A DNA stretch of 41,235 nt, taken from the NCBI GenBank assembly GCA_011052815.1, contig DRIG01000066.1, forward strand, positions 1 through 41,235, read 5' to 3'. The notes beneath the pieces were generated by a model. It was not told the DNA's origin, did no database searches, and was given only the letters and a program-made list of their open reading frames with translations. The first letter of the stretch is position 1; each line of letters opens with the position of its first letter. The position numbers and the translations under genes were made by a program. The DNA comes from a candidate division WOR-3 bacterium (lineage in GTDB: Bacteria > Hydrothermota > Tepidihabitantia > SM23-42). This document shows, one piece after another, positions 27,598 through 41,107 of the stretch.

Positions 27598-30285
27598 TTA
27601 TTTAAATTTGAATTTTCCCTGTTTGAATAACTTGAGGCAGGTTTCTACAACCTTTTTGTCATAGAGTTTACCGCTGTTTTTTTGAATTTCTTTTAATGCC
27701 TCTTCAAGTCCAGGAGCGCTTCTGTAAGGGCGGTCCGCGCTCATCGCTTCAACCACATCGGCGACGGCGAGTATCTTCGCCTCCAGAAGGATATCTTTTC
27801 CCTTGACTCCTTTGGGATATCCTGAACCGTTCAGTCTTTCATGATGTTGATGGACGATCTGTGCGATGAGCCAGGGGAATTTGATTGTTTTCAGGATATC
27901 ATAACCTGCAATGGGATGAACTTTGACGACTTTCATCTCGTTGGCGTTCAGCTTTTCAGGTTTATTAAGGATATCCTCAGGCACTTTTGTTTTTCCTACA
28001 TCGTGGATTAAAGCGGCGAGCTTTATTCCTTTGATCTGTTCTTCCTTCAGTTTCATCTCTTTAGCGATCGCCTGAGCGAGTTCAGACACTCTTTTTTGGT
28101 GGCCTGCAGTATAGGGGTCGCGCATTTCAACGACGGTCGCCAGGGTGTTGATTGTTTCTTCCAATACGTGCAGGAATTTTCCGAAGCTGTTTTTCAACTC
28201 AAGCTCGGCGTATTTACGCTCTATTGCATATCTGATGGCGCGGATCAAAACGTCGGCGGTGAATTTTCCTTTTGCAAAGCAATCCTGGGCGCCTTCTCTT
28301 ATTGCCTTCACCGCAAGGTCTTCGACCTCCATGGCTGTGAGGACTATGATTGGAATTTCCGGAACTTTCGTATGAAGTTTCTTCAGTGTTTCGAATCCCA
28401 TACTGTCGGGAAGATTCAGATCAAGAACTACGATATCGATAGGTTCCCGGGCGAGGTAGTTCAGTCCGTTTTTCAGAGTTTTTACATGAACAACGTCGAA
28501 TTTATTGTTTTTCGCCTGCATAAGCATCTTGACAAAGAGATCGCGGTCATCGGGATTGTCTTCGATTATCAGCACTTTAATAACCTCAGAACGGAGATAA
28601 AACTCTGTTCTTTCTTTTTTCGCCAAATGGGGCGATTCGGATTTTGTAAGAACTAAGCGGGGGCTGTGTTTCTGCATTTTGTGTTCATACATCAGTTTGT
28701 CGGCGTACTCGAGCAGCTCTTCCACCGGACATGGATTTTCCGGGTCATAGTATGTGGTGCCGATACTCAGAGAGAGTTTTACTTTATTCTGCGAATTTTT
28801 ATTGTAGTTGAATAAATTTTTCCGCAGACGTTTGATAAGCATCTGGGCACTGTCTTTGCGCGCCTCAATCGCACAGATTGCGAATTCATCACCTCCTAAT
28901 CTGCCGACGATGTCTGATTTCCGAAAACTCTGTTTACAGATGGCGGCGATTGTTTTCAGAGCGCGGTCACCTTCGTGGTGTCCGAGATTATCATTTATCC
29001 ATTTCATTCTATCGATGTCGGCGAAGATCAAAAAGAATCCTTTTTTACTGCGATTCGCCAGGTCAACCTGCTGTCTCACAAGTGTCAGAAATCCGCGGCG
29101 GTTATATAGGCCGGTTAAAGGGTCGATGAGGGAAAGAATGCGCAGTTCTTCTTCAGTATTTTTACGAGCCGATATATCCCACAGGTAAGAACGTGTTCCC
29201 ACTATTTTGCCTTTTTCTTTGATCGTGGTCGTCTGCACTTCTACATAGATCAAAGAACCATCCTTTTTAATCCCGCGAAATTCATAGGATTTCGGAGCCA
29301 GTTTATCATTGATTCGCTCTTTATGGAATGTTAGTACTTTCTTGACATCATCCGGATGGATGAGCGCCGAAAAAGTTTTATCTTTCATCTCTTCGTAGGT
29401 ATAACCGAATATCTCGGCGAATTTCGAATTGAAATATTTGATATTTCCGTCGATGTCGTTGATCAAGATCGCCACACTTGCTTTTTCAACCAGTTCCCGA
29501 TAGTTTTTTTCACTCTCCTTCAATGTTTCTTCGAAAAGCTTTCGATGAGTGATGTCATGAGCGATACCCAGCATATATGTTTTGCCTCTTATCTTTACGG
29601 GAAAAGTCCTTATTTCCACGTAAACCCGTGAGCCGTCTTTTCGGATGATCGTAAACTCATGGGAATCCCTGATTATCTTTTTGACCCCCTTTGACAGCAG
29701 TTCTCTGGCACGCGGGATCTGTTCAGGCGGCAGGATGTTTATTTCGAAAATATTTTTTCCTTTTAATTCTTTTATCGAATAACCGGTTATTTCTTCAGCC
29801 GCCCTGTTGCCATCGATGAGGTTGCCGTTCAAATCATGAATGTAGTAGGCATCCGGAGCGTATTCGAAGAGTATTTTAAAACGTTCTTCACTCTCCTGCA
29901 GCGCCTGTTTCATTTTATGTTTGTACAGAGTCATTTCTATATTTGTATATAATTCACTCGCCTCGAATGGTTTGACGATATATGCGTAAGGCTCTATCTT
30001 CTTCGCTCTCTGGAGTATGGTGTCGTTTGTGAATGCGGTTACGAATATAATGGGGATGTCGAATATTTTTTGAATCTGTTCAGCGGTTTTAATCCCATCC
30101 ATTTTCCCTTTAAGCACGATATCGAGAAGGATCAAGTCGGGTTTGTTCTTCTTGATGCTTTCGATCGCCTTCTTGCCGGTATTGGCTATCGCGGTGACGA
30201 CAAAACCTCTGTTCGCCAGGATATTTTCGATATCCTTTGCCACGATCATCTCGTCTTCGACTATCAGTATTTTTTCATTAGCCAT
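27598..30285 (-). CDS. REC-PAS-PAS-GGDEF-REC-HD-GYP cyclic-di-GMP signalling protein
   Basis: The protein has 895 residues. In order: receiver 1 (1-120, D55), PAS (about 130-250), PAS (260-378), GGDEF domain (385-545) with intact GGDEF (464-468) and the RxxD inhibitory site (455-458), receiver 2 (567-690, D622), and HD-GYP domain (700-895) with H761-D762 and HHERLNGSGYP. It carries both c-di-GMP synthase and phosphodiesterase modules with full motifs, each behind its own receiver. The ATG overlaps the preceding gene by 8 nt (ATGGCTAA). It is the last gene of the second signalling unit. Which activity dominates is unknown. Confidence 0.93.
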   Translation of the reverse strand: MANEKILIVEDEMIVAKDIENILANRGFVVTAIANTGKKAIESIKKNKPDLILLDIVLKGKMDGIKTAEQIQKIFDIPIIFVTAFTNDTILQRAKKIEPYAYIVKPFEASELYTNIEMTLYKHKMKQALQESEERFKILFEYAPDAYYIHDLNGNLIDGNRAAEEITGYSIKELKGKNIFEINILPPEQIPRARELLSKGVKKIIRDSHEFTIIRKDGSRVYVEIRTFPVKIRGKTYMLGIAHDITHRKLFEETLKESEKNYRELVEKASVAILINDIDGNIKYFNSKFAEIFGYTYEEMKDKTFSALIHPDDVKKVLTFHKERINDKLAPKSYEFRGIKKDGSLIYVEVQTTTIKEKGKIVGTRSYLWDISARKNTEEELRILSLIDPLTGLYNRRGFLTLVRQQVDLANRSKKGFFLIFADIDRMKWINDNLGHHEGDRALKTIAAICKQSFRKSDIVGRLGGDEFAICAIEARKDSAQMLIKRLRKNLFNYNKNSQNKVKLSLSIGTTYYDPENPCPVEELLEYADKLMYEHKMQKHSPRLVLTKSESPHLAKKERTEFYLRSEVIKVLIIEDNPDDRDLFVKMLMQAKNNKFDVVHVKTLKNGLNYLAREPIDIVVLDLNLPDSMGFETLKKLHTKVPEIPIIVLTAMEVEDLAVKAIREGAQDCFAKGKFTADVLIRAIRYAIERKYAELELKNSFGKFLHVLEETINTLATVVEMRDPYTAGHQKRVSELAQAIAKEMKLKEEQIKGIKLAALIHDVGKTKVPEDILNKPEKLNANEMKVVKVHPIAGYDILKTIKFPWLIAQIVHQHHERLNGSGYPKGVKGKDILLEAKILAVADVVEAMSADRPYRSAPGLEEALKEIQKNSGKLYDKKVVETCLKLFKQGKFKFK

Positions 30286-31318
30286 TATTCATCCTGTCCG
30301 GTTCATCTAAAAGATATTGACTGTTGAATTTGAAGTGTTTTTTCTTGAAGAGACGCAGGCAGGCGTCGACGACATCCGCTTCATAAAGAATCCCTTTGTT
30401 CGCGGCAATTTCGTTCAGTGCCTTATCCAACCCAGGAGCAGGACGATAAGGTCGGTGGGAGCACATCGCTTCGACTACATCAGCCACGCCCAGGATTTTC
30501 GCCTCGAGAAGTATTTCTTTGTCTTTCAGCCCCTGGGGATATCCGGTGCCATTCAATCTTTCATGATGCTGGTAGACAATCTTCGCAATGGGCCAGGGAA
30601 ATTCAATGGTCTTTAGAATGTCATAACCGACCTGACAGTGTGATTTGACGATCATAAATTCACCCTCGGTAAGACGGGTCGGTTTGCTTAAAATCTCCGA
30701 CGGTACGTAGATTTTGCCGATGTCGTGGATAGCCGCCGCCATATGAACACCGGTAATTTTTTCTTCAGGAATCTTTAATTCTTTTGCAATGGCGAATGCC
30801 AGTTGAGCGACACGCCACGAGTGGCCTGCAGTATACGGGTCCCTTTTTTCCAGAGCTATTGCCAGGGCTTTGACGGTTGATTCCAGACTCTTTTTCAGCT
30901 TTTCAAAACTCTCTCTTAGTTTCTGCTCTGTTTTATGCTTGTAAAGGGCTATTTCCACCGCGGTACGCAGATCCCTTTCGTCGAACGGTTTTATTATATA
31001 ACCGTGCGGTTCAGTCGCTTTGGCGCGCGCCAATATTTTTTCATCTGCGTATGCCGTGAGGTAGATGATCGGGATGTTGTAATGTCGTCGTATCTGTTCA
31101 GCCACTTCAATACCGTCAAGTTTACCGTTCAGAACAATGTCGATGAGCAATAAATCCGGCTTGAACTTTTTGATTATTTTAATCGCCTTTTCACCACTCG
31201 TTTCGATCCTGGGTACTTTATATCCCAATCGTTCCAGAATGAGTTTTATGTCTTCTCCGACGATTCTTTCGTCTTCGAATATTATGATCTTCTCTCTCTT
31301 TGTTTCTTCTCTTTTCAT
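30278..31318 (-). CDS. REC-HD-GYP response regulator (c-di-GMP phosphodiesterase)
   Basis: The product is 346 residues from ATG 31318, which overlaps the upstream stop as ATGA; the open frame allows ten more residues from 31348. The receiver (1-125) has D60. The HD-GYP domain (150-346) has the metal motif H198-D199 (AAIHDIGK) and HHERLNGTGYP, all intact. It should linearise c-di-GMP under control of a kinase, probably one of the kinases encoded in the same region. Its HD-GYP part is a close paralogue of the one in the next gene. Confidence 0.92.
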   Translation of the reverse strand: MKREETKREKIIIFEDERIVGEDIKLILERLGYKVPRIETSGEKAIKIIKKFKPDLLLIDIVLNGKLDGIEVAEQIRRHYNIPIIYLTAYADEKILARAKATEPHGYIIKPFDERDLRTAVEIALYKHKTEQKLRESFEKLKKSLESTVKALAIALEKRDPYTAGHSWRVAQLAFAIAKELKIPEEKITGVHMAAAIHDIGKIYVPSEILSKPTRLTEGEFMIVKSHCQVGYDILKTIEFPWPIAKIVYQHHERLNGTGYPQGLKDKEILLEAKILGVADVVEAMCSHRPYRPAPGLDKALNEIAANKGILYEADVVDACLRLFKKKHFKFNSQYLLDEPDRMNNG

Positions 31319-32187
31319 GTGGTCCGTCTTTCTCCGGGAATACAACATAAGACTTTACGTGCCTGAGATAGTAATTCCGCTATCGAACGATTCACTGCGG
31401 GGTCGTAGTATGCCGTACCGATATTGAGAGAAAACCTGCCGCTGATTTTCCTGGATGCATTATAGATATCCAGATTCTTTTTGAGACGTTCAATCAATTT
31501 ATTGATATTACTCTTATGTGCTTCCAGGGCGATCACCGCGAACTGTTTTTCGTCTATTCGGGATATTATATCTGATCTGCGAAATGTCTGTTTCAGGATA
31601 TTGGCGACCGCAATCAATTCCTCCTGATTTTTCTGAGACGGTTCACCAGATGTCGGTGTTTTATTCCATTCGACGACGAGAACTATAAGACCGCGGTTAT
31701 TGCGTTTCGCCAATTTCAAATAGTGCATCGCCAGGATGAGAAATGATTGTTTCGTATATAAACCGGTGGGTTTATCTATCAGAGGCAGTCCGCTCAGTTC
31801 TTGCTGGATTCTTTGTTGGTCAATGGCGTATTGGATTGAACATAAAAGTTGTGAACTGTCTGTTTGCTCTTTGATTATGAAGTCCTTTGCACCGAGCTGG
31901 GTTGCTTTGGCACCCAGTGATTTCTGCTCGACCGTGGTGACGACTATTATCGGGGCATCCGGAAACTGCCCATAGAGACGGCTGAATGCATCAAGCCCCT
32001 GAATATCCGGGAGCTGCAGGTCCAGTAGAACAACATCGAATTTTTCTTCAATTAACTTACTTAATCCTTCTTCCAGATTGTCGCTCGTGACCAGTTCGAA
32101 TTCTGAGTCCATTACTTCAGTCAACATTGTTCGGAAAATCTCGATTTGTTCGAGATCATTTTCAATCAACAACAGCCGGATATTCAT
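31315..32187 (-). CDS. REC protein with degenerate GGDEF domain
   Basis: The protein has 290 residues. The receiver (1-122) has D56. The second domain (about 140-285) aligns with the diguanylate cyclase of the 895-residue protein, but GGDEF is replaced by DEKQF (212-216), so synthase activity is unlikely. The RxxD inhibitory-site motif (R203-D206) is kept five residues before, which could allow c-di-GMP binding as an effector. No Shine-Dalgarno precedes the ATG; a stable hairpin stands 16 nt upstream of it. Confidence 0.85.
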   Translation of the reverse strand: MNIRLLLIENDLEQIEIFRTMLTEVMDSEFELVTSDNLEEGLSKLIEEKFDVVLLDLQLPDIQGLDAFSRLYGQFPDAPIIVVTTVEQKSLGAKATQLGAKDFIIKEQTDSSQLLCSIQYAIDQQRIQQELSGLPLIDKPTGLYTKQSFLILAMHYLKLAKRNNRGLIVLVVEWNKTPTSGEPSQKNQEELIAVANILKQTFRRSDIISRIDEKQFAVIALEAHKSNINKLIERLKKNLDIYNASRKISGRFSLNIGTAYYDPAVNRSIAELLSQARKVLCCIPGERRTT

Positions 32188-32202
32188 ATCATTTAAATTA
32201 AT

Positions 32203-32234
32203 GAGGCAGCCGGGACGTCCGTCCCAGCTGCCTC
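32203..32234 (-). promoter_or_regulatory. Stable intergenic hairpin between two signalling genes
   Basis: A 14-bp stem, GAGGCAGC-T-GGGAC against GTCCC-G-GCTGCCTC with one G-T pair and a 4-nt loop, lies between the NarL regulator stop and the next start. No T-run follows on either strand, so it is not a classical terminator. An attenuator, an RNA stability element or an RNase III site are possible. Confidence 0.55.
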
Positions 32235-32276
32235 AGGAGGGAGGTACGAAAAGAATGAGCCGTGCCTTCTCATAAT

Positions 32277-32942
32277 CTATTGAACCAACTTATTCTGAAT
32301 CGCTAGTCTGACCAGAGCAGCGGTGTTGTGGGCGTTCAATTTACGCATTATACTCAGTCGATGATGTTCCACGGTCCGCACGCTGATCCCCAGTTTACTG
32401 GCGGCTTTTTTATTCGAATCGCCTTCTGTAATGAGTTTAAGAACTTCCCGTTCGCGTGGCGTGAGGGTTGTGTATGGTGTTTTTTTTGTTCGTTTTGCCG
32501 GTTTCTGTTTACGCTGGACGAGCATTTTTATCACATCGCTTGAGAAAGTGGGGGAGACGTACAGTTTGTTGTTCTTCAATGTCTCGAGAGCGGTCATAAG
32601 TTCTTTGTCTGCATCTTCTTTGAGCAGGTATCCCTGAGCTCCACATGTCAGGGATTCATATACATATTCTTCATTTTTGTGCATCGTTAAGATGAGAATT
32701 TTAACTTTTTTGTTGAAACGCCTTATCTTTCTGATCGCCTCGATACCTCTGAGTCTGGGCATGGAAATATCGAGGATAACGATGTCGGGCTGTAATTTTT
32801 TAACGCCGGTGATGATCTCCAGACCGTCACCGGTTTCTCCGATGATCCTGTAATTACCTTTTTCCTCGATGATACGCTTTAACCCATTGCGGATTAGGGT
32901 ATGATCATCAGCCAGAAAGATTGAATAAGGCATAGTTATCAC
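32277..32942 (-). CDS. NarL/FixJ-family response regulator (second unit)
   Basis: The protein has 221 residues. The receiver (1-125) has D58 (IVILDISMPRLRG); a linker is followed by a LuxR-type helix-turn-helix (about 158-218: [36 protein letters not shown]). It should bind DNA when phosphorylated. It is a close paralogue of the 39076-39726 product. AAGGAG precedes the ATG. Its promoter and upstream motifs lie between 32960 and 33030. Confidence 0.95.
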   Translation of the reverse strand: MITMPYSIFLADDHTLIRNGLKRIIEEKGNYRIIGETGDGLEIITGVKKLQPDIVILDISMPRLRGIEAIRKIRRFNKKVKILILTMHKNEEYVYESLTCGAQGYLLKEDADKELMTALETLKNNKLYVSPTFSSDVIKMLVQRKQKPAKRTKKTPYTTLTPREREVLKLITEGDSNKKAASKLGISVRTVEHHRLSIMRKLNAHNTAALVRLAIQNKLVQ

Positions 32943-32959
32943 TCCTTTTCCATACTTAC

Positions 32960-32987
32960 ATTCTAAAAAATAACCGGGAAATTACAA
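32960..32987 (-). promoter_or_regulatory. Promoter of the second signalling unit
   Basis: On the minus strand, TTGTAA (32987-32982, 4/6 match to the consensus), a 16-bp spacer and TAGAAT (32965-32960). The weaker -35 box and the conserved motifs just upstream suggest an activator-dependent promoter. The leader is about 11 nt. Confidence 0.6.
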
Positions 32988-33030
32988 TAGAACCTATTGC
33001 GTATATTTACATATGTATAAATACCTATTT
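32985..33030 (-). promoter_or_regulatory. Candidate regulator-binding sites upstream of the second signalling unit
   Basis: On the minus strand, AAATAGGTATTTATAC (33030-33015) lies 28 nt before the -35 box, and the dyad CAATAG-N3-CTATTG (32999-32985), which contains a weaker AATAGGT copy, touches the -35 box. The first motif recurs with one mismatch upstream of the paralogous regulator at 39810-39825. Confidence 0.6.
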
Positions 33031-33062
33031 ACAAAATCGTGGGAGGTTAATTGTTTATTGTT

Positions 33063-33449
33063 TTAGCAGCTGAAAAGAACGCGGATTTTCTTTAATAAAT
33101 AAGGAAGCGGTTCTCCTTTGACAAAATAATCATCGGCTCCCGCCTCGGCGGTATAGGTGGCGGCCTCATTCTCCGACCAGATCGTGCAGATGATGATTTT
33201 TATCCAGGGATATTTTCCCTTAATTAAACGAGCGGTCTGTGGGCCGTCCATACCGGACATCCGTACATCCAGTATTATCAGGTCGGGTTTTTCTTTTTCA
33301 ATGAATTCAAGGGCGTCTTCACCTGTTTCCATAACTCCGAGTAATTTAATTTCCGGGTGTGATTCGAAAAAGCATTTAATCGCATCCTGGAAAAACAGAC
33401 TGTCGTCAACGACGAGAGTTCTTATTTTATCTTTTTTCATTCTGTTCAT
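33063..33449 (-). CDS. Stand-alone receiver domain protein
   Basis: The protein has 128 residues and contains only a receiver domain with D61 (LIILDVRMSG), the threonine/isoleucine strand (IIICTIWSE) and lysine K115 (YFVKGE). The sequence resembles the receiver of NarL-type regulators but no helix-turn-helix follows. It could be a phosphate sink or a relay partner for the REC-PAS-HisKA_3 kinase whose gene it overlaps by 23 nt. ATG 33440 is an alternative start. Confidence 0.85.
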   Translation of the reverse strand: MNRMKKDKIRTLVVDDSLFFQDAIKCFFESHPEIKLLGVMETGEDALEFIEKEKPDLIILDVRMSGMDGPQTARLIKGKYPWIKIIICTIWSENEAATYTAEAGADDYFVKGEPLPYLLKKIRVLFSC

Positions 33450-34881
33450 CTACAAGAGGGAAAGTTCCTCTGATGATAGTTCCTTTTCCCGGTTTCGTTC
33501 TGATGGTGATGCTCCCGCCGATCAAGCGCGCCCTTTCCTGCATAATAAGAAGACCGTAATGGCCTGTTCTTTTGTTCATGATGTTTTTCAAGTCAAAACC
33601 GATTCCATTATCTTCTATTTTTAATCTCAGGTTGTTTTTATACACTTTGAGTTCTAGGGAAACGGCGGTGGCGCGGGAATGTTTGTTTATGTTTGTGAGT
33701 GCCTCCTGGATAATACGGATGATGTTCGTTCGTATAATGAGGGTCATATCCGGCAGTTTTTCAGGATACTTGAAGTCTATCTTTATCTTTGAATCGATGA
33801 ATTTATGGTCGATTGTCTTTTTTATTACATGGATAAAACCTGCGTCAAATTCCCGGAGCGGTTCGATCTCACTGATCATCGCCCGTCCTCTTTTTATGGA
33901 CGTTTTAATTATTTCAATCAGTTTATTGCGCTGTTTCAATGTTTTCGCATCCAGCTTGGAAAGATCGATCATCTGAAAGAAATAGAGGACCGCAACCAAT
34001 CCCTGGAGAAGGTCGTCATGTATTTCAGACGCGAGATAGAGACGTTCCCTTTCCTGGGCATAAATAATCTTTTTCGTCAATTCTTTGGTGCGCCGCTGTT
34101 CTTCCCGCAGTGCTTTTTCCATATTCTTGCGTCTTGTGACATCCCTTACGATACCGAGAAATCCCTGGATTCCTCTTTCTTCTTCTTCGATTATCGTCGT
34201 ACTCACCTCAAAGATCTTTGTTTTTCCCTTTACATCCTTTATTTTAACTTCCATCAGTTCAGTGGTATCTTTCGTATCGAGGACATTCTGGAAAAGATCA
34301 GAGAATTTTGCTATTGTTTCTTCACCGAGGAAAGAAAGGTCTAAAAAGTTTTTATTTATTATCCTGCTGCGTTTAAAGCCGAGTATCTTTTCGACCTTTC
34401 CGTTGATGTCGATGATTTTGCCGTCTTTATTTAAATATACGATGATATCATTCGCCTTTTCAAAGATTGTTCTGAATTTCTCTTCGCTCTCTCGCAATTT
34501 TCCTTCAATTTTGTGTTTGTAGAGCGCCAGCTCAATGGCTGATTTTAATTCGGTGTCTTCGAACGGTTTCAGTATATATCCGAACGGCTCGGTTATTTTG
34601 GCACGTTCCAGGGTTTGGTTGTCTGCATAGGCGGTGATGTAGACCACAGGAATTTTGAAACGGGTACGGATCTGTTCAGCAGCCTCGATCCCGTCCATTC
34701 TTCCTTTGAGTTTGATGTCCATAAGTACAATATCCGGATCTTCTTTCTTTATTTTTTTTACGGCTGCTTCACCGCTTGCTGAGATGGATGTCACCTGATA
34801 ACCGAGGTTTATCAACCTTTGCTCGATATCTTTGGCTACGATACTTTCGTCTTCGACAATTAATATCCGCGTCCCGGACAT
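33427..34881 (-). CDS. REC-PAS sensor histidine kinase, HisKA_3 (NarX/DegS) type
   Basis: The protein has 484 residues: receiver (1-120, D55), PAS (about 132-252), HisKA_3 dimerisation domain with H288 (YLASEIHDDLLQG), and HATPase (about 370-478, with DNGIGFDL and GHYGLLIMQERARLIGG). HisKA_3 kinases usually phosphorylate NarL-type regulators, two of which are encoded nearby. The N-terminal receiver makes it an inverted hybrid kinase. There is no membrane segment, so it is cytosolic. The ribosome binding site is weak; the gene starts 11 nt after the upstream stop. Confidence 0.93.
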   Translation of the reverse strand: MSGTRILIVEDESIVAKDIEQRLINLGYQVTSISASGEAAVKKIKKEDPDIVLMDIKLKGRMDGIEAAEQIRTRFKIPVVYITAYADNQTLERAKITEPFGYILKPFEDTELKSAIELALYKHKIEGKLRESEEKFRTIFEKANDIIVYLNKDGKIIDINGKVEKILGFKRSRIINKNFLDLSFLGEETIAKFSDLFQNVLDTKDTTELMEVKIKDVKGKTKIFEVSTTIIEEEERGIQGFLGIVRDVTRRKNMEKALREEQRRTKELTKKIIYAQERERLYLASEIHDDLLQGLVAVLYFFQMIDLSKLDAKTLKQRNKLIEIIKTSIKRGRAMISEIEPLREFDAGFIHVIKKTIDHKFIDSKIKIDFKYPEKLPDMTLIIRTNIIRIIQEALTNINKHSRATAVSLELKVYKNNLRLKIEDNGIGFDLKNIMNKRTGHYGLLIMQERARLIGGSITIRTKPGKGTIIRGTFPLVDEQNEKR

Positions 34882-34892
34882 AAAATCAGTTT

Positions 34893-35987
34893 CTACTTGA
34901 TTTTCTCAAAGGTAATGGTGAATTTTGTTCCACCTTTTCTTTCCAATTTTATCGTACCGTTCAGTTGTTCAACGAGTGTTTTAACCAGTTGCAGCCCCAG
35001 GGTCTTTAAGCTATTCAGCGTGATATGCTGAGGAATGCCGACTCCATTATCTCTGATAATTAAGGTATAGAGATTTTTTTTGCTCTTACGGAGTATTACG
35101 TCGATCTTATGCTGTCTGCGGGTTTTCGGGATTATGGAAAGGCGGGGGAATGCATATTTTAAAGCATTTGACAGCAGTTCATTGATGATCAATGCGCAGG
35201 GAATCGCCGTATTGATATCAAAATATATGTTTTTGATATTGATGTTCAATTTAATACGTGATCTACTTATTCCATAGGACAGCATCAACTGTTTACTGAG
35301 GTCTTTTACATATTCTTCACAGTCTACGTGTGTCAGGTCTTTTGATTCATATAGTTTTTCGTGGATCAATGCCATTGTCCTGATGCGATTCTGACTGTGG
35401 CGCAGGACCGTGGTTATCTTTCCATCCGCACTGTGGCGGATCTGGAGGTTCAAGAGGCTTGATATGATCTGCATATTATTCTTAACTCGATGATGGATTT
35501 CTTTCAAAAGCACTTCTTTTTCCTGAAGTGATTCTTTAATGGTTTTTTCGGCTTCCCGCTTTTCACACTCGAGTTTTATTGAATGGAGTGCGAATGCAAG
35601 GTCGCCGCTGATCTCTTTGAGTAATGAAAGTTCTTCCCGGTCGAATATCCGGGAGTGGAGTACATAGAGGGTCGCTTTTATCGTATTTTTTATGATGGGT
35701 GAGATTACGAGATACTTTCCGTTGAAAGACTCTGCATGGAGTTTTCTCTTCTGGAGAACTTTTTCGCCCAGGATTTTCTTTTTCAGTTTTTTACATTCTT
35801 TACGGTCTCCTGCTTGGAATATCCTGCCGTCGTAATGGATCAGGATTGCGGTGTAGCCTTTCACTTTGATCAGGATGTCGCATGCCTTTTGAAGGAGTAG
35901 TTCTTTTTCTTGCTCTCTGGTGATGAGCTGATTCACGTTGCGGATCGCGCGCAACACAAGATTGAGGTGTTGCTCTCTCTTATTCAT
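34893..35987 (-). CDS. GAF-like sensor histidine kinase, HisKA_2 type
   Basis: The protein has 364 residues. The N-terminal part (1-140) looks like a degenerate GAF domain. The HisKA_2 motif [14 protein letters not shown] carries H165/H166, followed by the HATPase domain (about 255-362; [31 protein letters not shown]). There is no membrane segment. The ATG overlaps the upstream kinase stop by 4 nt (ATGA). The C-terminal 200 residues are closely similar to the end of that upstream kinase, so the pair probably arose by duplication. Confidence 0.92.
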
Positions 35988-38900
35988 TTTTTGAAGGTAA
36001 TGGTAAATTTTGTACCTTCCTTGACTTCAACCGTAATGACACCGCTGAGCTGCTCCACCAATGCCGATACCAGCTGCAGTCCCAGTGATTTTGTTTTTTG
36101 GAGATCGATGTTTTTCGGCAGCCCCACACCGTTGTCGCTGACGATAAGAACGGTTCTGTTGCGTTTATCCTGGAATAATTTTAAGGTGATCTCCGGAGAT
36201 CGGGGTAGAGAACGAGGAAAGGCATGTTTCAATGAGTTGGAAATCAGTTCATTGATTATTAAACCGCAGGGGATCGCCGTATCGATATTCAACGTGATGT
36301 TCTTTATGTTTTTCTTCAGAACAACGGTTTTGGGTTTTACACCATAAGAGTGAAAGAGATGCCTTACCAGACCGTCGATATAATCATCCGCTTTGATGTT
36401 TGCAAGGTCTTTTGATTGGTACAGTTTTTCGTGTATGAGCACCATTGATTTAATACGGTTTTGGCTTTCTTTGAAGAGATTCTGGTAATACTCGTCTTTG
36501 ATATATCCGGCCTGGAGATTCAAGAGGCTTGAAATGATCTGCAGATTATTTTTCACTCGGTGATGGATTTCTTTGAGGAGCGCTTCTTTCTCTTTCAATG
36601 ACGCCTTTAATTTTTCTTCGGCTTCGATACGCTGTTTCAGCTCTTTTTTACTCTCTTCATACAACTGGGCGTTTATGATCGCAAGTGCGATCTGCTGGGC
36701 GATCGAGGTCAACAGGCGCTCTTCCTGTTTGGACAGCAGACAGGAGGTTCTGCAGCCGACGATCATCAGCCCCACAACTTTTCCTTTCGCCTGCAATAAT
36801 ACATAGTGCATATACTTCAGGTTCAGTCCTTCTTTCCTTATCGCCAAGAGTATTCTTTCGAACTCCCTTGGATTGGATATTATCGTTTTTAGAGACAATA
36901 TAAATTCCCCTAATTTACCTTTTTCCTCTACCATCTTTATCGTCCCCTCATCAACGCTTATCACCTTTACCTCTTTCGCGAACTTTTTGGAAACACCGCT
37001 GTGGACGAACAGTTCCAATTTGCTTCTTGTTTCATCAGCAAGATATATGCCGCCAATTTCAAGGTTCATCACTTCCAGTATTTTAGCGAGTGCGGCACTT
37101 AAAGTTTCCTGTAGATAGAGTGATTGGCTGATGACTTTGGAGATGGTGTTCAATGTGGCGAGTTCCTTGGTACGCTGTATAACTTCTTCTTCTGAACGCT
37201 TGCGTTCTGTGATGTCGCGCATGAAGACGAGAAACGCCGGTTTTCCCAAGTAATTAATTATTGTGCTGTTTATTTCAGCCGGGATGAGGGTACCGTCCTT
37301 TTTTTGAATTTCTATTTCATAGATATTCGGGACGCTTTTGCCGGCGAGGCGATCTTTCACCCGCTGTCGTATCATTGAGTGGTATTTCTTGGCAATGAAG
37401 TCGGTGATGTTTTTCCCCATGATCTCCTTAAATCTATAACCTCCAATTTTACAGGCGGCGGAGTTTGCGAATTTTACCACACCGTTCTGGTGGATGATTA
37501 TTGCATCTTTGCTGTTTTCAACGACAGACGAGTATTTTTCTTCACTTTCGCGCATTGCTTTTTCAGCCTCTCTGGTCTGCATAAGCAGGTAGGCGTTATT
37601 GATGGCGGTCGCCGCCGTGTTCGCCAGGGTTTTGACGATTTCCAGTTCTTCTTCAGATATTTCCTTACGTGGTGATGAGATCATTATTCCACCGATGATC
37701 TTCTTTTCCACTTCCAGGGGTACGACCATATAGTTCCGCGAACTGCCGATTTTCTGTAACGCCTGACATATCTTTTTGCTTAAGATCGGATAAGCTATCT
37801 CTTCCAGGGATGCGGCGGTGACGATCTTCCCAGTCAGTGCCGAACGGGTTTTTGCTCCGAGGTCGGCGTCAGCAGAAAAGGAGAGATTTTTGATTGAATA
37901 ACCCAGAATTTCATTTATTTTTTGGAAAAGATTATGTCGTGTGGAGGATGTTTTGACCTCAAAGCGATTTTTCTGTTCATTCAGCATCAGGATAAAGGCA
38001 CTGTTGTATTCAAGGAGATTTATAAAACCCTCGGTTATCTGCTTGAATATCTTATTCAACTCCAGGCTGCTGTGAAGGGTCGCAGTGATTTCTTGAAGCA
38101 TCTTCAGTTCTTTGTGCTTCTTCAAAATGTTTTCTTCGGCTTTTTTCTGTTCTGTGATGTCATGATTCACAGCCACGGTACCGATGTAATTGTTTGTGTG
38201 GTCATTAATCAAACTGATGGAGGACAACACCTTCATCCGTGAGCCGTCTTTTCTCTCCTGGATTAATTCACCACGCCAGTGTTCTTTTTTGAAAAGCTCT
38301 TTCATCGCTTTTTCTTCTGTTCCGCTCGGGAATATTGAATTGGTGACCTTGTGTAGAGGTTTTCCAAGGACTTCATACGCCTGCCACCCGTACATCTGTT
38401 CCGCTGCACGGTTCCATGTTCGGATCCGGAAGTCAAGATCAGTGGAGATTATAGCATCGGAGACGTTCTGGAGCAAGTCTGCCTGGTAATGGAGTTTTTC
38501 CATTGTCCTTTTGCGGTCTGTAATATCTCTTATAATCCCCAGAGTTCCAAGAAACTTCTTGTTTTTCATCTTTGCCGAGGGGTTATAATATCCGGTGGAA
38601 CTTACATCACCGAATGCGATCACCTCGCCGATCAGGGGTTCAATATCCTTCTTGTTTTTCTGTTTTTTCGGTATAAGCCGGACTTCAAGATTTTTTGTTT
38701 TTCGCACGCCGGTTCTTCTTTCATCGAAGAGTTTTGGTGCATTTTCGTCACCGGTGATTTTACCTCTGTATTTCGGCAAAACATATAATCTTCCGAATTC
38801 CCTGACATCGTCAGGATGTATTATTTTACTGAAGTGCTCACCGATTAATTCTTCGGGGTCATATCCAAGTATCCGTACTGAATTATTGACGAAAGTGAAA

Positions 38901-39067
38901 TAACCGTCCGGGTCTATTTTATAGACGATATCCGGTAATTCTTTTAAGATCGCCAGATATTTTTCCTCGTCTTCCAGTTTTGTTTGGCTTGATCTGTATC
39001 GGCGGTAGGCTCTTTTTTGTTTAATCCTTCTCCTGCCTTTTTGGGTTATTTTCTTTCTGGCGTTCAT
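35984..39067 (-). CDS. Multi-sensor histidine kinase PAS-PAS-GAF-PAS-GAF-HisKA_2
   Basis: The protein has 1027 residues and no membrane segment. A basic N-terminus (1-30) is followed by PAS1 (about 35-190, with a long insert around 100-165), PAS2 (195-315), GAF1 (330-495), PAS3 (505-630), GAF2 (640-800), the HisKA_2 motif [14 protein letters not shown] (histidine near residue 834) and the HATPase domain (about 920-1025; [19 protein letters not shown]). It integrates several cytosolic cues; ligands are unknown. It starts 8 nt after the NarL regulator gene with AGGTGGAAG before the ATG. Confidence 0.93.
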
Positions 39068-39075
39068 ACTTCCAC

Positions 39076-39726
39076 CTATGTCACCTCGATCAACCCTGTT
39101 TTTATGGCATATTTTATCAGCTGGGCGGTGTTTTGTATATTAAGTTTCCGCATAATGCTAAGACGATGATGTTCCACGGTCCTGACACTGATGCCGAGTT
39201 TTTTCGCCACCTTTTTGTTCGAGTTTGCTTCTGCAATGAGTTTGAGTACTTCTCTTTCACGTGGAGACAAGCTTTTGAATGCAGAATTTTCCCTGGCACT
39301 CTTTTTATGCTCAAGCAGCCTTCTGAGGACATCGCTTGAGAAAGAACATGAGATATAAAGTTTATTATTCCGCAGGGAATTGATTGCACTTATTAATTCT
39401 GTATCAGCATCTTCTTTCAGAACATACCCATGGGCGCCGTTAAGCAGGCATTCATAGACATATTCTTCATTTTTATGCATTGTCAGAATTAGAATCTTTA
39501 TTTTTTTATCAACCCGTTTTATCTTTCTGACCGCCTCAATACCTCTTAAATTGGGCATGGATATATCCAGAATTATCATTTCCGGATTAAGTTTCCTGAT
39601 TTGTGGAACTATTTGGAGTCCATCACCGGTTTCACCGATGATCTTTAATCCTGAATTCTCCTCAATGATTCTTTTCAGACCATCCCGTAACAGGGTATGG
39701 TCGTCTGCCAGAAAGATAGTATACAT
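39076..39726 (-). CDS. NarL/FixJ-family response regulator (first unit)
   Basis: The protein has 216 residues, with a receiver (1-120, D54 in [12 protein letters not shown]) and LuxR-type helix-turn-helix (about 152-212: [36 protein letters not shown]). It is very similar over its length to the 32277-32942 product. It heads an operon of three kinases and a receiver. AGGAG precedes the ATG. The leader from the upstream consensus promoter is about 118 nt and contains two copies of the AAATAGGTA motif. Confidence 0.95.
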
Positions 39727-39850: not shown

Positions 39851-39878
39851 ATTATATCGGGAAAAATCGAATTGTCAA
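39851..39878 (-). promoter_or_regulatory. Promoter of the first signalling unit
   Basis: On the minus strand, TTGACA (39878-39873), a 16-bp spacer and TATAAT (39856-39851), both perfect. Confidence 0.83.
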
Positions 39879-39900
39879 GGAGTATTATTTGATCCAGTAA

Positions 39901-39938
39901 TATAGAGGGGATTTGCTTTAAAGCAACCCCCCTCTATA
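39901..39938 (-). terminator. Terminator-like hairpin after the selenoprotein gene
   Basis: TATAGAGGGG (39901-39910) pairs with CCCCTCTATA (39929-39938), with an inner TTGC/GCAA pairing in the loop. It follows the stop of the minus-strand gene by 26 nt. The T-tract is poor on both strands, so this could be an RNA-stabilising hairpin or a weak terminator. Confidence 0.55.
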
Positions 39939-39964: not shown

Positions 39965-41029
39965 TTATCTTACAACTATTTTCCCGTTCGTTGTCAGTGT
40001 TTGACTATCGAATCTATAGAAATATACGCCGGCGCCCACCTGGGAACCGGTGTCATCCTTGAGCGACCATTTGATTGATTCTCTATTGCCGGTTGCTGTA
40101 CCTGTCATCTTTGTAATGAGACGGCCTGTGATATCAAAGATACTGATTTCATAATGAGAACCAATGGGTAGTTCAAACTGGAAGTTTGTTCCGTTGACGC
40201 AAGGGTTGGGAACCGGTGATATCTTCTGAACGGTGGTAGTTTTCGAAGATTCCTCTTTTATTCCTATGAGGTCAAGAACCTTTACGATTCCACCCTGCCA
40301 TACTTCTTTAGTGGAATCAGAGGCAAGAGTCGGATTTTGAATGAACGTCACGATTTCGCACATACTGTCATCCCACCCTGATTGAATGGTAAAGCTCTGA
40401 GTCACCGTGACTGAGTCTCCCGGTGCGATGCTGACACTCTGGCCGTTTTGATTCGGTATATAATCACGAGCCACATGGTTATGCCAGTAATCGCCGTTCG
40501 GAGCTGCATAATACAGACTATCTTCAGTGATGACGAAGAGGACTCTTCCGTTCAACGTCGCTGTCGAATCGTTGCGGAACTGGGCGTTTATTGTACCGGT
40601 TCCTGTTCCCGGATCATAATCGCCCCACATCGTGACAGTAACCGGTGATGGTTGACTCATCCGACTGGTGATTTTTGATTCCCATGTCGAGTAAGTGTAA
40701 CTGCCGTGGGGGTCGCCGTCGTACCAGAGCCAGGGGGTCGCATAGTACCACGAGCCATTATAATAATATGGAGGAGGATAGGTGTACATACGCTGCACTG
40801 CCTCGGCACAATACAGGGGATAGCTTGAAGAGATATGCATTTCAATGGCAGCGACTCTTCCAGGATAGTTTATTGCGATATTAGCCAGTGTCCCACTGGC
40901 GGGATTGCATGAACTTCAACCTTCCTGATAGAGTTCTTCACAGACCACGACACGCTCTGCAGCGAAGAGAGGTGAGAGCATGCCGATTCCTGCAACAAGA
41001 CTTAAACCTAATAATAGAGCTTTTTTCAT
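39965..41029 (-). CDS. Predicted secreted selenoprotein: thioredoxin-fold UxxC domain with C-terminal sorting domain
   Basis: The reading frame runs from ATG 41029 to the stop at 39965 with one internal TGA (40918-40916). Read through, it gives 354 residues. A signal peptide (MKKALLLGLSLVAGIGMLSPLFA) is followed by RVVVCEELYQEG, the TGA as residue 38, then SSC: a UxxC motif in place of the CxxC of Omp28-like thioredoxin folds. EMHISSSYPLYCAEAVQ and a TPWLWYDG cis-proline-like loop continue that fold. Residues about 135-255 look like a beta-sandwich, and 271-354 a FlgD/Por-type sorting domain (PVPNPCVNG; GAGVYFYRF). AAGGAGG is 4 nt before ATG 41029. A start at 40840 would lose the signal peptide and active site. 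A nonsense mutation is the main alternative. Confidence 0.82.
40884..40918 (-). promoter_or_regulatory. Candidate bacterial SECIS element with its UGA
   Basis: On the minus strand the UGA (40918-40916) is followed by 15 nt and then a perfect 7-bp hairpin, GCCAGTG-GGA-CACTGGC (40900-40884). The apical loop begins with G and lies 22 nt after the UGA, within the window usual for SelB-dependent insertion. A possible lower stem pairs TGC (40909-40907) with GCA further downstream. Confidence 0.75.
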
Positions 41030-41079
41030 ATCGCCTCCTTTCCGATGGGAAATTTCTCTATTCTACTATAACTTTATAT

Positions 41080-41107
41080 AATATATATAAAATAAGAAAA
41101 TTGTCAA
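41080..41107 (-). promoter_or_regulatory. Promoter of the selenoprotein gene
   Basis: On the minus strand, TTGACA (41107-41102), a 16-bp spacer and TATATT (41085-41080). The leader is about 44 nt. This shows that the gene starts upstream of the TGA, at ATG 41029. Confidence 0.8.

Follow-up and report, generated by a model that had tools for sequence, protein, structure and literature searches.

We report that a gene on the minus strand of a 41,235-nucleotide stretch of DNA from a candidate division WOR-3 bacterium (the whole stretch, hereafter the window, is part of contig C66 of a 2.39 Mb genome that is 97.6% complete) only looks broken by a stop codon and is almost certainly intact, its in-frame TGA very probably specifying an active-site selenocysteine (Sec) in a thioredoxin-like protein that is exported. 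From the sequence evidence we hold it highly probable that the gene encodes an exported selenoprotein, decoded through a SECIS element and SelB, that would serve as a thiol-disulfide (selenol) oxidoreductase at the cell surface. With this gene, a little-studied candidate phylum gains a selenoprotein family that is Sec-only and present in several copies. Dozens of related species have the gene too, with the codon unchanged, and selenocysteine is here joined to a T9SS-type surface-sorting domain. The features of the locus, in the direction of transcription, are:

41078-41107, minus strand: sigma-70-like promoter, TTGACA-16/18-TATATT/TATTAT, 11/12 matches, starting at 41107
41034-41040, minus strand: Shine-Dalgarno sequence AAGGAGG, 4 nt 5' of the ATG (sequence)
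39965-41029, minus strand: predicted selenoprotein gene, 355 codons, 354 aa, Sec at residue 38, TAA stop (sequence)
40958-41029, minus strand: signal peptide, residues 1 to ~24, MKKALLLGLSLVAGIGMLSPLFAA (by eye; type conserved in the alignment)
40916-40918, minus strand: TGA codon 38, very probably read as selenocysteine, first position of U-S-S-C (translation, homologue alignment)
40907-40909, minus strand: codon of Cys41, the putative resolving cysteine (sequence)
40884-40900, minus strand: SECIS-like hairpin GCCAGTG-GGA-CACTGGC, 7 bp, folding at -11.2 kcal/mol
40658-40957, minus strand: thioredoxin-fold region, residues ~25-124 (AlphaFold2 model, invariant columns, HBP35 fold match)
40331-40738, minus strand: Omp28 domain (PF11551), residues 98-233 (E 1.4e-16, 61.2 bits, cut-off 34.9)
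39968-40210, minus strand: T9SS type-A C-terminal sorting domain (TIGR04183 / PF18962), residues 274-354 (TIGR04183 37.9 bits, cut-off 23)
39900-39938, minus strand: strong hairpin directly 3' of the gene, possible terminator (-24 kcal/mol, z -5.0)

The sequence-only reading had located the gene correctly but had not given its strand, which is minus, from 41029 down to 39965. Translation confirmed its claim that one TGA interrupts an otherwise open frame of 355 codons, here closed by TAA, and the reading-frame scan counted 48 open codons before the TGA and 316 after it. The TGA does fall at the first position of a CxxC-type motif, as U-S-S-C at residue 38; the signal peptide is followed by RVVVCEELYQEG-U-SSC, and the residue, in the context ...VVVCEELYQEG-U-SSC..., is the only U among 354 amino acids. 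The expression signals were likewise as described, with the Shine-Dalgarno sequence at its claimed spacing from the ATG and the promoter ~50 nt further upstream, although in this AT-rich surrounding DNA the promoter search returned 9 sites against 3.5 expected. The hairpin behind the gene is an inverted repeat without a clear T tail, and the terminator search did not count it.

A lone in-frame stop in an open frame resembles a recent nonsense change, and a downstream ATG at 40840, where the mechanical ORF call starts, would yield an ORF of 291 aa; both would suit a real stop in a pseudogene under decay, or a TGT or TGC misread in sequencing or assembly. That ORF, however, has neither the signal peptide nor the active site, the latter missing because standard gene calling truncates these genes, and the TGA recurs far beyond this contig. 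The single paralogue in the same genome (56% identical) contains one internal TGA, which aligns with that of the window gene, and ~80 close homologues from other assemblies, at 35-70% identity, share this codon as their single in-frame TGA, in every case within a UxxC motif. Such recurrence of one codon within one motif excludes chance, and since the assemblies are many and independent, an erroneous base is implausible. Moreover, the frame is conserved on both sides of the TGA, with compensatory synonymous changes downstream of it. We therefore regard the real-stop or error explanation as already refuted by the conservation of the TGA and leave it practically no weight. Among the matches listed from 150 related genomes, all those with E below ~1e-60 that reach residue 38 have the in-frame TGA. 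One match without TGA (G008:C161, 46% identity) is an exception in appearance only, since a run of N covers the site; another relative (G008:C91) has an in-frame TAG besides the TGA and may be broken.

The sequence-only reading had proposed asking whether the TGA aligns with Cys codons in homologues, and it does. Searching the retrieved DNA with a profile of 30 members yielded 172 relatives, 164 of which cover the residue-38 site: 127 have TGA, all within UxxC, and 37 have Cys (36 CxxC and one CxxS), a ratio that is not a frequency estimate, as some loci were duplicated from two collections and non-TGA relatives were deliberately picked. No third residue type occurs at the site among these 164 sequences. 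All named records with close homologues belong to WOR-3 or Candidatus Stahlbacteria, and a scan of viral contigs found no relative. In a tree of 125 sequences with the Sec/Cys site masked (a quick tree with some long branches), the window gene is one of 68 close relatives that group together with a support of 99, and all of them are Sec forms. Outside this clade Sec and Cys alternate, with at least eight changes, six of them forced by well-supported branches; this is the usual exchange of Sec and Cys at one catalytic position.

Some candidate phyla have reassigned TGA, so that an organism-wide reading as Trp, Gly or Cys has to be weighed; we consider it extremely improbable here. TGA is the ordinary stop of 11 of the 37 window genes, which shows that the code has not been reassigned; in the alignment the site corresponds to Cys, not to Trp or Gly, and the genome has the full selenocysteine machinery. 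Its tRNA-Sec (77.4 bits, anticodon TCA) lies on contig C30 adjoining selB and selA, and selD, on contig C61, has a TGA of its own (CPGUASK), i.e., it is itself a selenoprotein gene. Because the model RF01852 also matches other long-arm tRNAs at 31-51 bits, only matches of ~70 bits were accepted as tRNA-Sec, with ARAGORN support in the case of this genome. Thus all four components that the earlier reading had named as a check (selA, selB, selC and selD) are present in a near-complete genome. Of the 150 genomes, 53 have the TGA form, and SelA was found in 50 of these; among the other 97, for which no TGA form was listed, it was found in 12 (Fisher p 2e-24; the sequences are related and come from metagenome-assembled genomes, and p-values therefore overstate their independence). 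The three TGA-form genomes without SelA reach a completeness of 53-82%, and a clear tRNA-Sec was identified in two.

Two minor observations concern the machinery genes. The SelD protein (G000:C61:33517-34419, L018) has a Cys-rich N-terminal extension in the same open frame (YFCPCKQHHP...CPCPTL...GFCHCRLF) that by eye resembles the catalytic chain of ferredoxin-thioredoxin reductase. In three relatives SelA is present in two adjoining pieces (G047:C59:75459-76619, G055:C107:2854-4065 and G113:C23:3956-4871), which in G047 and G055 are parts of one frame with an insertion and in G113 lie in different frames.

The hairpin downstream of the TGA has the properties of a bacterial SECIS element. It begins 15 nt after the TGA and presents its loop 22 nt after it, which is the bacterial SECIS distance, and in the same genome selD also has a hairpin after its own TGA, with the loop at the same distance. 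G stands at the first loop position almost without exception, though the codon in question can specify Gly, Ser, Trp, Arg or Cys. Across 38 aligned genes, two-sided changes were observed in four of the seven pairs (21 cells), the covariation score was reached by none of 500 shuffles, and the paired fraction was 90.6% in the true register against at most 39% in any shifted register; in one member, e.g., TCC..CTG has become TCA..CTT, both changes being synonymous and the pair being kept. Compared with synonymous recodings, the hairpin region is more stable than the protein sequence demands in the Sec homologues (mean z -1.82, 93 genes) but not in the Cys homologues (mean z -0.21, 33 genes; Mann-Whitney p 6e-11, a value made too small by relatedness), which lack the hairpin. 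For the window gene taken singly the signal is only modest (z -2.05, with 4% of synonymous recodings as good), and by dinucleotide shuffling its hairpin is not significant (z about -1.5); the argument for a SECIS element is therefore based on the covariation and on the comparison of Sec and Cys genes.

Low efficiency of UGA recoding is common in bacteria, and one might suppose that the codon is merely read through by a near-cognate tRNA or by a Cys-loaded tRNA-Sec, or that it works mainly as a selenium-sensing switch yielding mostly a short peptide. We judge this very unlikely, because the UxxC motif is strict and, across the 68-member clade, the TGA has long been retained and has never reverted to Cys, which argues that Sec itself is selected. 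The claim of the sequence-only reading that Sec is inserted at residue 38 is thus supported at the level of sequence by a site restricted to TGA and Cys, the SECIS covariation and the sel genes. In the selenoprotein reading, which we prefer, the ribosome would reach the UGA at codon 38, the hairpin downstream would recruit SelB with Sec-tRNA-Sec, and selenocysteine would be inserted instead of termination, as the conserved signals and the machinery suggest. The 354-aa product would leave the cytoplasm by means of its signal peptide, pass through the outer membrane with the help of a type IX-like system, by way of its C-terminal sorting domain, and act at the cell surface or outside the cell as a selenol-disulfide oxidoreductase, with Sec38 as the probable attacking residue, Cys41 as the resolving residue and Pro99 as the cis-Pro, as fold and conservation indicate. 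Under selenium shortage translation would end after 37 residues, and the enzyme is therefore expected only when selenium is available. The most likely function is that of an exported selenol-disulfide oxidoreductase; the likeliest role, by analogy with HBP35 of Porphyromonas gingivalis, is to reduce disulfide bonds of exported proteins or to handle the redox state of a metal or heme ligand.

The predicted structure agrees with a redox function. The AlphaFold2 model (mean pLDDT 89.3, pTM 0.66) has a strand at residues 28-34, the UxxC motif (38-41) at the start of a helix (41-54), a second strand at 59-65 and a helix at 113-124, and together with Pro99, which is invariant in the alignment within TPWLWYDG and probably sits at the place of the thioredoxin cis-Pro, it displays the order of a thioredoxin fold (strand, CxxC at helix start, strand, Pro). 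Its best fold match in the PDB is HBP35 (5y1a, E 3.8e-15, TM 0.53/0.59); transglutaminase-like matches were set aside, as they reached a TM of at most 0.25 and were based on Ig-like sandwiches. The sequence-only reading had placed a signal peptide upstream of the TGA and thioredoxin-like and sorting domains in frame downstream of it, and both were borne out, by eye for the signal peptide and by profile matches for the Omp28 domain and for Por_Secre_tail of Pfam (residues 274-353, E 1.5e-6, 28.9 bits, cut-off 27). It had called the tail FlgD/Por; the Por part held, as a T9SS type-A domain, but the FlgD match (E 0.014) is weaker than that to TIGR04183 and was rejected. The protein thus has both features of type IX cargo, a signal peptide (by eye) and a type-A sorting domain. 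The genome further encodes an SprA-like protein (233 bits, over the cut-off, in pieces on fragmented contigs), a PorV-family protein (197 bits, over the curated cut-off) and ~50 proteins with a related C-terminal tail, which makes export and surface display of the window protein by a type IX-like system plausible.

Omp28-related selenoproteins as such are already known. GOS_C, a hypothetical protein with a thioredoxin-like fold, was first described from ocean samples in 2008 (Zhang and Gladyshev, PMC2398784), corresponds to the NCBIfam model NF045500 ('Omp28-related selenoprotein') and is listed as a hypothetical protein with UxxC in a 2026 review (PMC13188914). The window protein resembles it in the Omp28-related N-terminal region, the thioredoxin-like fold, the UxxC motif, the exchange of Sec and Cys among homologues and the SECIS element after the TGA. 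However, it scores 44.1 bits against the NF045500 cut-off of 200, which none of the 150 related genomes reached, and the close homologues of its family are, among named records, only from WOR-3 and Stahlbacteria; some WOR-3 Cys forms outscore the Sec family on this model. Given these scores, the window protein is a new, separate family of an already known kind, the UxxC thioredoxin-like, Omp28-related selenoproteins. The protein matches PF11551, the family of Porphyromonas gingivalis Omp28 (PDB 2r2c), above its cut-off, and differs from it and from the Omp28 lipoproteins of NF033782 in having Sec in place of Cys; on NF033782 it scores 60 bits against a cut-off of 150, and a sorting domain replaces the lipid anchor. 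In HBP35 of P. gingivalis, a cell-surface protein whose reduction of insulin depends on two active-site cysteines (PMC2907840), a thioredoxin domain is likewise followed by a T9SS C-terminal domain, but the active site is Cys48/Cys51 instead of Sec and identity to the window protein is 16%. Other UxxC selenoproteins (thioredoxin, DsbA-like, DsbG-like and thiol:disulfide interchange proteins) also have Sec at the N-terminal position of CxxC in a thioredoxin fold, but belong to different domain families, and none of the entries examined in table 1 of the same review is described as Omp28 combined with a sorting domain. A literature search, with subscription journals and preprints largely outside it, found no paper pairing selenoproteins with Omp28 or with WOR-3. 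The suggestion of the sequence-only reading that the combination was undescribed therefore stands in part: an Omp28-related selenoprotein was known (NF045500/GOS_C), whereas the window protein lies well below the cut-off of that family.

The window family is not the only Omp28-type selenoprotein of these bacteria. A short, lipoprotein-like relative of the Omp28 type (~250 aa) that has a UxFC motif lies downstream of the main-family gene in several WOR-3 genomes (L042/L071, L060/L089, L092 and L093; FTED[S/N]UGFC in L071 and L060), and arrays of different Omp28 selenoproteins thus occur; its Cys homologues lie in L104 and L086. A family of ~600 aa, with an Omp28 domain, further domains and a sorting domain, mixes Sec and Cys members (L137 and L139-L147 versus L104, L118, L119 and L122-L125), and its Sec genes have a different, similarly placed hairpin (GGCAAG-AGGT-CTTGCC). 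The main family itself occurs as tandem duplicates ~1 kb apart with the TGA in both copies (L044, L055, L056, L057 and L062). We lean slightly towards the view that these families, i.e., the main Sec-only family with several copies per genome, the ~600-aa family and the short lipoprotein-like one, belong to an unrecognised extracellular selenoproteome of WOR-3, comprising several Omp28-type thioredoxin families with type IX-like surface display and performing selenium chemistry outside the cell. If true, surface-displayed selenoproteins would carry selenium chemistry to the outside of WOR-3 cells. The window family makes extracellular selenium-dependent redox chemistry open to testing, and its Cys homologues can serve for comparison.

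Next to the selenoprotein gene, a perfect 12/12 sigma-70 promoter match (TTGACA-16-TATAAT, 39851-39878, minus strand) precedes a gene for a LuxR-type response regulator (39076-39726, minus strand; family assigned by eye), which adjoins a run of PAS, histidine kinase, HD-GYP-like and GGDEF-like genes (27598-39726, also by eye).
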